DNA from: Owenia fusiformis
Lineage: Eukaryota; Annelida; Polychaeta; Sabellida; Oweniidae
NCBI GenBank assembly: GCA_903813345.2
Contig: CAIIXF020000011.1
Location: forward strand, 21,125,754 to 21,189,753
Length of the DNA stretch: 64,000 nucleotides
Reading direction: 5' to 3'
The notes below the pieces were generated by a model. It was given only the letters and a program-made list of their open reading frames with translations. It searched no databases and was not told where the DNA came from. How positions within the stretch are numbered: the stretch's first letter is position 1; the number at the start of each line of letters is the position of its first letter. The translations under genes were made by a program, and so were the position numbers. Shown here in pieces: positions 30,648 through 33,600 of the stretch.

Positions 30648-33600
30648 TCACATAACCTCGACACACATAGCCACACCCATTCCTCCTCCTACACATAGAG
30701 CTGCCACACCCCTCTTCTGTCCAGTACGTTTTAATGCATGTAGTAAAGTGACTAAGATCCTTGCCCCTGAGGCTCCTATAGGGTGACCTAGTGCTATTGC
30801 ACCTCCATTGATGTTAACCTGAAGGGGAGAAATGTAGTAAAGTGACTAAGATCCTTGCCCCTGAGGCTCCTATAGGGTGACCTAGTGCTATTGCACCTCC
30901 ATTGATGTTAACCTGAAGGGGAGAAATGTAGTAAAGTGACTAAGATCCTTGCCCCTGAGGCTCCTATAGGGTGACCTAGTGCTATTGCACCTCCATTGAT
31001 GTTAACCTGAAGGGGAGAAATGTAGTAAAGTGACTAAGATCCTTGCCCCTGAGGCTCCTATAGGGTGACCTAGTGCTATTGCACCTCCATTGATGTTAAC
31101 CTGAAGGGGAGAAATGTAGTAAAGTGACTAAGATCCTTGCCCCTGAGGCTCCTATAGGGTGACCTAGTGCTATTGCACCTCCATTGATGTTAACCTGAAG
31201 GGGAGAAATGTAGTAAAGTGACTAAGACCCTTGCCCCTGAGGCTCCTATAGGGTGACCTAGTGCTATTGCACCTCCATTGATGTTAACCTGAAGGGGAGA
31301 AATGTAGTAAAGTGACTAAGATCCTTGCCCCTGAGGCTCCTATAGGGTGCCCTAGTGCTATTGCACCTCCATTGATGTTAACCTGAAGGGGAGAAATGTA
31401 GTAAAGTGACTAAGATCCTTGCCCCTGAGGCTCCTATAAGGTGACCTAGTGCTATTGCACCTCCATTGATGTTAACCTGAAGGGGAGAAATGTAATAAAG
31501 TGACTAAGATTCCCGACCCCTTGTGATGCTATAGGGTAACCTAGCGCTATTGCACTATACGGTACTTTGAATATAGATTTATCACCTACCTTCTCAGGTG
31601 GGCATCCTAGCTCAGTGACTACAGCCAGAGACTGGGCCGCAAATGCCTCATTCAACTCAAATAGGTCAACATCCCCCACTGACCAGTTTGCTTTCTCCAA
31701 CTGAAATAAATCAATTAACTTTTCAGTTGCATTGACAGGCCCGTAGCCAGGGGGGGTTCGCAGGGTTCGGGCGAACCCCCCCCCTGGCCAAAAATTCTTT
31801 CAAAATCATGCAGTTTTTCACCATTTTGAGCACTTTTCAAGTGATTTTAGCCATATTTGGGGCAAAATTGTCAAATGTGAACCCCCCCTGGAAATTTTTG
31901 AAAATTGAACCCCCCCTTGGCAAATCCTGGCTACGGGCCTGATTGATTTATAGTTAATACCTAATACAACATTGTTACATTTCACCGATGTTAGGCAATG
32001 TGCGTAAGAATATGACAGTACTTGAATTTCGTACTTCCTCAATGCAGGAGGAGCAATTCTGACATGCATATGCCTGGTTTCAAACTGGGGTTCATTCATA
32101 AATTAACTCAAATATATTTCTTGAGCTTTCCACAGAGCATATTGTATCATATGGCAGTACTTCTTAATATATTGATATAAACAAACAAACATGTATATGT
32201 TCTCTACAAAATGGTCGGCAATAAGTGAGGGGGTTCTCTGGAGGTCACTCCTCATTAATTCTCGTCATTCTTACTTAACTATTAAGTAACCCAATAGGTC
32301 ACCCATGTGAGCTAATAATCAGCAATGGAAACTTGAGTTAAAGAGTCTGGATTACAAATTGTAATCATATATGGCATCAATACAGTATTAAGATAAATTT
32401 AGACAAGGCATTAACATGGCAAAGGACTAGTATTAAGATGGCAAGAGATTTTGGACAGCTGTATTTTTGGTCATGGGTATTTCCCGACCATACAATGAAC
32501 ATTTTATATTAAAACAATATCTTGACTTCAACAAAAGTGCATGAAAAATATAAACATCTCAATTTAATAATGAGATTAGCCATGGATTAGTAACCCACCT
32601 CACTTTTTCAATAATGTTGACCTTATATTGAAAAAGAGGACCTTGATTTTCAAAGTTTCTGTGCAAAATTAGATTGCAACATTAGTTATCAGTAATCTCA
32701 TATATAGGAAAATTGGATTGAATTCCTAGTTTTTTTAAAGAATTTTGGGCTCTCTCTCCAAGAAATACTGAAATAATTGCTATGTGATGTTTATAATATA
32801 TTCAACACAAATACATGGCAACACAGTGTCATAATACCTGGTGTTATATTTGGAACTCATGTTTTGTACTCATAGTGTCAGCTACTGAATGCAGTTTATT
32901 CATACAGGATTATATGGCATTGTGACTTGCAAACACTTGAGTAGTATTATATCCAACAGCATTTATATGGAAGGTATAAGAAAATGTTTGAAGGATACAT
33001 GCTGATAAAAGTCATGCTCATACACGCCTAACCATCGACAAGGTACAGTCACGTGACAGGTGACAAAATATGCCGTAGTACACTTTTGATGTACTATGTC
33101 ACTATTAACTGATTTTGAGCGAAGACCATGATGTAGGTTCGATGCAGGTTTTCAAAAATAAATTTTAGGAGAACACAAAGGATTTTATGTTTGATTTCGC
33201 GTGCATTCGATTTCAAAGACATTTATTTTTCTAATAACGTTAAAAGATCTTCGAGCAGTGCTCGATTTTTTTCGTTGTTAGTCTACCCATACGATTCTTC
33301 GGTTGGAAAAATGTTGTTTTTTACACATTTCCTTTGATAATTTTCTCCCCTGACGTCTCAGAGTGTCGAATATTTTTATGAGAATGTGTTTCTCTAAACT
33401 ACACAGTTTAGGACAGGTGAACATTTAATAAACATTCATGCATTTGATATAATTTAAAAAATCAGAAATGTACGTTGTCAACTCACAGTGTATGTTGTCC
33501 CTGTAATTGAAATACATGAGTTATAATATTAAACATTGCAATGATTTAATTTCAAAATGCATTAAGGGTTTTATGCGTTACAAGTGATGTTCAACGAACA

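Follow-up and report, generated by a model that had tools for sequence, protein, structure and literature searches.

Eight near-identical 3' splice acceptors, each followed by the start of the same exon, precede the end of a predicted ACAT2 gene in Owenia fusiformis, and the question that this raises is which of them the spliceosome would pair with the upstream donor and what the others amount to. The gene is located on contig C11, within a stretch of 64,000 nucleotides that is referred to here as the window. Nine exons on the minus strand of the window join to an intact reading of 392 aa (Table 1). A query joined by hand, with exon 1 left out, had human ACAT2 (1wl4) as its best PDB match (E 4.9e-159); positions 1-374 of the 376 in the query aligned with 1wl4 20-395, and NMLCGSG, GHP and ALCVGGG stood opposite QMICGSG, GHP and ALCIGGG. 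These three motifs are presumably the catalytic Cys, His and Cys of thiolase, with ALCVGGG as the second catalytic Cys. The score with TIGR01930 was 456.4 bits, compared to a cut-off of 240.55. These results identified the gene as that of the cytosolic acetyl-CoA acetyltransferase (ACAT2). A preliminary description of the locus, made from the letters alone, had already named the gene as ACAT2 and had assigned the catalytic His loop to the repeated unit; its naming of the gene and of the unit was correct.

A second ACAT2 was not found in the assembly, where matches at other loci were 37-56% identical over the matched stretch. One thiolase, at C6:29656698-29657810, is 41% identical to ACAT2 and is read in a single open frame of 419 aa, so it is apparently intronless. 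Intron 2 of ACAT2 contains direct copies at window positions 42828-43299 and 44159-44629, with 469 of 471 aligned bases identical, and at 44954-45430 an open frame of 158 aa with a CxxC...H...C pattern, which we take to resemble the end part of a reverse transcriptase of the LINE type. The GC content of the window is 29-41% (2-kb bins), and no Rfam match was found in the window at gathering scores.

Table 1 Features of the ACAT2 gene and its repeat array, in window positions. Units are numbered in gene order; the slash marks a splice junction.
Feature	Position	Strand	Acceptor AG end	Remark
Exon 1	46125..46164	-		coding part
Exon 2	45660..45794	-		
Exon 3	41785..41966	-		first catalytic Cys (presumed), NMLCGSG
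Exon 4	41069..41186	-		
Exon 5	40426..40569	-		
Exon 6	39369..39491	-		
Exon 7	38708..38862	-		
Exon 8	31590..31700	-		donor AAG/GTAGGT at 31589
Degenerate copy	31490..31555	-		in intron 8, without acceptor part; 54/65 identical plus a 1-base insertion
Unit 1	31396..31489	-	31477	first in gene order; position 51 C>T, GHP to GHL
Unit 2	31302..31395	-	31383	position 46 T>G, synonymous
Unit 3	31208..31301	-	31289	position 74 A>G, Ile to Val
Unit 4	31114..31207	-	31195	equals consensus
Unit 5	31020..31113	-	31101	equals consensus
Unit 6	30926..31019	-	31007	equals consensus
Unit 7	30832..30925	-	30913	equals consensus
Unit 8	30738..30831	-	30819	equals consensus; last in gene order, runs into full exon 9
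Exon 9	30648..30818	-		coding part and stop, 171 nt, read from last acceptor
Poly(A) signal	30548..30553	-		AATAAA, about 95 nt past the stop

The array occupies 30738-31489 on the minus strand and consists of eight tandem 94-bp units that span the end of intron 8 and the start of exon 9. Each unit comprises a 13-nt 3' splice acceptor, TTCTCCCCTTCAG, which belongs to intron 8, and the first 81 nt (27 codons) of exon 9. Tandem Repeats Finder placed the array at 30738-31555 (period 94, 8.7 copies, 97% matches, score 1529). Alignment to the consensus revealed three variable positions among the eight units, one substitution in each of units 1, 2 and 3, and an invariant acceptor part. The eight units of 13-nt acceptor and 81-nt exon start, with little divergence, were as had been described; five of the eight are identical. 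When the 94-bp unit was searched against the entire assembly, nine matches were returned, all at the ACAT2 locus (eight full and one degenerate), and the degenerate ninth copy takes up 66 of the 113 nt that separate the first acceptor from the exon-8 donor. The inner units are identical and a diverged copy lies at one edge, a pattern that fits tandem-repeat turnover, by which the array may have originated; at the opposite end, unit 8 does not differ from the inner units.

Such identity might also be produced if one or two real units had been inflated to eight during assembly. One assembly was seen, five of its units are identical, and a published amphioxus array of the kind discussed below was aberrantly assembled in the draft genome (PMC3087553). 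Against an artefact of this type, units 1-3 and the degenerate copy each have private differences, the contig extends to at least 36.5 Mb, and the same design with its own variants is found in two other genes. We consider inflation by the assembly highly improbable. A further candidate was rejected. Tandem duplication of mutually exclusive exons would require whole-exon copies with their own donors; units 1-7 do not contain the 3' part of the exon, and the best GTs within the unit pair with U1 at only -5.6 and -5.4 kcal/mol.

Translation of the reading from every acceptor gave two products. Acceptors 1-7 lead to 368 aa that end in HFSPSG and a stop, without the second catalytic Cys, and only acceptor 8 leads to the 392-aa reading, as unit 8 is the one unit followed by the remainder of exon 9. 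Both results agreed with the preliminary description, in which the last acceptor alone gave the full enzyme and the other seven read HFSPSG-stop. The introns to acceptors 1-8 range from 113 to 771 nt in 94-nt steps (the second is 207 nt), and the terminal exon up to the poly(A) signal shortens from 929 nt with the first acceptor to 271 nt with the last. Decay-prone mRNAs had been suggested as another possible outcome. This proposal was not supported: the premature stops of acceptors 1-7 fall inside the terminal exon, with no exon junction 3' of them before the AATAAA at 30553, so junction-dependent decay is unlikely, and a switch based on junction-dependent NMD was rejected as a candidate.

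Two published proximity rules pull in opposite directions on the choice of acceptor in ACAT2. In introns shorter than about 250 nt, the two sites that lie closest to each other across the intron are chosen (PMC9225289), and by this rule the 113-nt and 207-nt introns would favor the upstream acceptors 1 and 2, such that the truncated product could be the default. When flanking introns are long, the sites closest across the exon are preferred, which favors the last acceptor; human 3' splice sites show an overall upstream preference that long flanking introns merely reduce, and the data described in that paper cover internal rather than terminal exons (PMC9225289). Under terminal-exon definition, the last acceptor is coupled with formation of the 3' end (PMC3737548). 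Against upstream use, the 113-nt intron is shorter than every one of 85 introns estimated in the genome (minimum 118, median 316; approximate), a sample drawn from three profile searches (51 of 60, 53 of 92 and 47 of 144 rows, respectively) and biased to short introns because many rows were picked for close-lying neighbors. Since only 113 nt of intron lie before the first acceptor, some leak into the 368-aa isoform is plausible.

The preliminary description went further and suggested that the acceptors could act as a splice-choice ladder that sets the enzyme level. In such a ladder all eight would compete, a set fraction of transcripts would go to the 368-aa isoform, and copy number would tune the enzyme level. 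The same 13 nt in all eight acceptors, the truncated reading from seven of them and the short introns to acceptors 1 and 2 under intron definition are what such a ladder would use. However, the stops lie where junction-dependent decay is not expected, unit 1 has GHL in place of GHP in the catalytic loop and gives no sign of selection, and the closest precedent, from amphioxus, is described as free of splicing interference (PMC3087553). A ladder that sets the enzyme level is unlikely on these grounds, and we regard it as a possible consequence of the array rather than as its demonstrated function.

That precedent is the mirage, a minisatellite-like tandem duplication of an intron-exon boundary described in the amphioxus globin genes BflGb6 and BflGb9 and in Adh3 (PMC3087553). 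The array type found here is already known, and the amphioxus mirage is its closest match, with the same anatomy. In BflGb6, the 3' end of the intron and the 5' part of the exon are repeated in units of 150-160 bp that undergo concerted evolution within the cluster, six and three units are present in two haplotypes, and RT-PCR suggested regular splicing despite the repeats (PMC3087553). The ACAT2 repeats likewise lie across an intron-exon boundary (eight repeats of 13 nt from intron 8 followed by 81 nt from exon 9), the authentic exon boundary stands at one end of the array, where unit 8 enters the complete exon 9, and a homogenized interior is bordered at one end by a diverged edge copy (54/65). 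The two systems differ at the opposite end: the boundaries of the BflGb6 cluster are described as outside homogenization (PMC3087553), whereas unit 8 is undiverged.

We conclude that the ACAT2 array is probably a mirage-type minisatellite in which the last unit works and the upstream units are decoys. Unit 8, joined to the rest of exon 9, would be the working exon start, and the upstream units would in effect be added intron sequence with decoy acceptors. The spliceosome would preferentially pair the exon-8 donor with the last acceptor, yielding the working enzyme and the shortest terminal exon, and use of an upstream acceptor would yield the 368-aa protein, which is predicted to be inactive. 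Some leak of this kind would presumably be tolerated. By analogy with amphioxus, the copy number of the array is likely to vary between individuals.

Two sister arrays were identified on C2, one of which was met by accident, in a KIF4-like kinesin gene, and the other when looking for more, in an ISWI-like gene. The kinesin gene (C2:23264500-23271000; best match KIF4) contains 18 tandem units of acceptor and exon start at 159 bp (one spacing is 158). Seventeen of these end in PVAL-stop (13) or PVVL-stop (4), and the last alone continues into NRDPQAAEI. The ISWI-like gene (C2:4914200-4917600) has five acceptors spaced at 137 bp, of which the last alone opens into an exon of 132 nt whose donor is GTAAGT; its best match is a SMARCA-type remodeller, which we take to be SMARCA5, and the next is ISW1. 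The full exon is entered by the last unit alone in all three genes.

The assembly comprises 498,259,871 bases in 525 contigs, 12 of which are large (C1-C12; 31.9 to 62.2 Mb where shown, else at least 33.8 Mb from match coordinates). This number presumably differs from the chromosome numbers of amphioxus. Ten Pfam family searches of the genome, which score the best candidates only and whose tables were judged by eye, gave at least 812 matches, or 791 with the array copies collapsed, and no donor-side array was seen among the matches listed. Minisatellites are common in the genome. At thresholds of four or more copies and 85% or more matches, and for periods of 40-250, seven Tandem Repeats Finder rows (five distinct arrays, including that of ACAT2) cover 4,504 of 154,000 bases (2.9%, or 2.4% without the ACAT2 array) in the window and L032-L040 together. 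Two arrays in 791 matches are, as a rough comparison given that the 154-kb sample was picked around genes, if anything below the expectation from random placement.

Other repeats and duplicated exons were also seen; of these, the L037 array and the kinase, helicase and myosin cases were considered and set aside. A larger minisatellite at window positions 14746-16547 has a 135-bp unit in 13 copies with 89% matches. A 106-bp, 11-copy array in L037 contained no obvious exon when the first 140 codons of each frame were inspected by eye. At C10:2255600-2258600, a kinase gene, presumably GSK3-like, has two diverged complete exons with their own donors that are likely mutually exclusive, and a broken helicase sequence at C4:29161300-29163300, which we take to be RecQ-like, carries an exonic duplication of 2 x 181 bp in which no splice boundary was seen. 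At C9:37986009-37994334, one stretch of the myosin head is matched twelve times at irregular spacing; judged by their coordinates only, these matches are probably alternative whole exons, and the gene is probably a muscle myosin gene. At C1:6486401-6487260, two SNF2-type matches to the same residues lie about 690 bp apart and perhaps represent a duplicated exon.

The variants within the sister arrays were compared by their effect on coding. The KIF4-like units contain 8 synonymous and 2 non-synonymous distinct variants (25.3 and 91.7 sites, respectively), and the ISWI-like units differ at 4 coding positions, all synonymous (4 vs 0). Synonymous changes make up 12 of the 14 in the two arrays together (binomial p = 1.1e-5 with transitions x3, 1.3e-6 unweighted), in a post hoc test in which each variant was taken as one event. 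Variation at non-synonymous sites is also lower than in the sequence immediately 5' of the acceptors (2/152 vs 9/87; Fisher p = 0.002). The count rises to 13 of 17 when ACAT2, itself outside the binomial test, is added. With 12 synonymous against 2 non-synonymous variants, the KIF4-like and ISWI-like copies look coding-constrained. In contrast, the ACAT2 units show no such constraint (1 synonymous and 2 non-synonymous variants). A passive array alone does not account for the synonymous excess in the two sister arrays; exchange with the functional unit or the capture of old allelic variants are possible causes.

A broader reading, which we advance tentatively and with the odds somewhat against it, is that mirages are recurrent in this genome and probably occur outside cephalochordates, with units that rotate into the last slot by unequal exchange or conversion and that are all coding-constrained. 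To the mirage explanation of ACAT2 it would add, on the same tentative footing, that in conserved genes the spliceosome has to pick out, time and again, the final acceptor in a series of 5 to 18 that are almost the same. The passages on mirages in the amphioxus report name cephalochordates only (PMC3087553). Compared to those, the hosts found here are ACAT2, the KIF4-like and the ISWI-like gene, with 8, 18 and 5 units.

The sister arrays also bear on a different mechanism, recursive splicing through dual-specific sites, for which human UBC is the model. As in the ACAT2 array, AG/GT is present at all repeat boundaries of UBC and whole units are removable by splicing (PMC10809524). The UBC units are complete ubiquitin monomers (PMC10809524), whereas those of ACAT2 are partial, have a length (94 bp) that is not divisible by 3, and carry a weak donor half at the boundary. 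Under this mechanism, TTCAG/GTTAAC would serve as an acceptor and then as a donor, and the units would be removed singly. AG/GT falls exactly at the exon start in all eight units, removal of any number of whole units restores the normal reading, dual-specific sites are known in tandem-repeat genes (PMC10809524), and pairing with U1 within the unit (-5.6 kcal/mol) is slightly better than at two of the eight normal ACAT2 donors (-5.1 and -5.3). However, none of those eight donors has T at +3, and after the first splice the pairing drops to -4.1 kcal/mol, which is weaker than at all eight (-5.1 to -11.0) and is equaled or bettered by 17.5% of 1,500 sampled GTs. The boundaries of the sister arrays are AG/AT and AG/CT, so a recursive mechanism cannot be general. 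Given the weak pairing of GTTAAC with U1 after the first splice and the lack of AG/GT in the sister arrays, recursive splicing is very unlikely.

Three other systems share part of this anatomy. The potato RdRp gene PGSC0003DMG402000361 resembles ACAT2 in that the intron 3' end and exon 5' part are duplicated with an acceptor in each copy; it differs in that there are two copies, the upstream one of which contains a cryptic donor, GTAAG, that made a new intron (PMC4974935), whereas the ACAT2 unit has weak donors only. The VNTR in intron 18 of human ABCA7 is likewise a minisatellite that includes a splice site, with the normal site adjoining the exon: its first unit holds the normal donor, and splicing from the adjacent donor retains one unit, which changes the frame (PMC5954066). 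In contrast to ACAT2, it lies on the donor side, is described as intronic, and has 12 to about 427 units of 25 bp (PMC5954066). Variable tandem repeats in human segmental duplications alter splicing at exon-intron boundaries and may create introns; these cases are recent human paralogues, and an array of acceptor and exon-start units does not appear in the passages seen of that paper (PMC2812944). A literature search that covered titles and abstract openings, with few subscription papers, found no further array of this kind beyond the systems cited. Possible novelties are the count of these arrays within a single genome, one that looks unlike that of amphioxus, and the coding constraint of their units.

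Experiments on how the spliceosome selects one of several equivalent acceptors generally rely on engineered constructs. The ACAT2, KIF4-like and ISWI-like arrays are three natural series of near-identical acceptors (8, 18 and 5 copies) in conserved genes; given the amphioxus precedent, their copy numbers are likely to differ among individuals, and they would let the proximity rules of intron and exon definition be read from RNA. Array repeats could also turn exon sequence into intron sequence, and a degenerate ACAT2 copy already lies within intron 8. If the synonymous excess is confirmed, copies that encode no full protein would still be exposed to selection. If the units are both constrained and rotating, the arrays would offer a permanent test, set up by nature, of intron definition against exon definition, and would be an active source of new introns.
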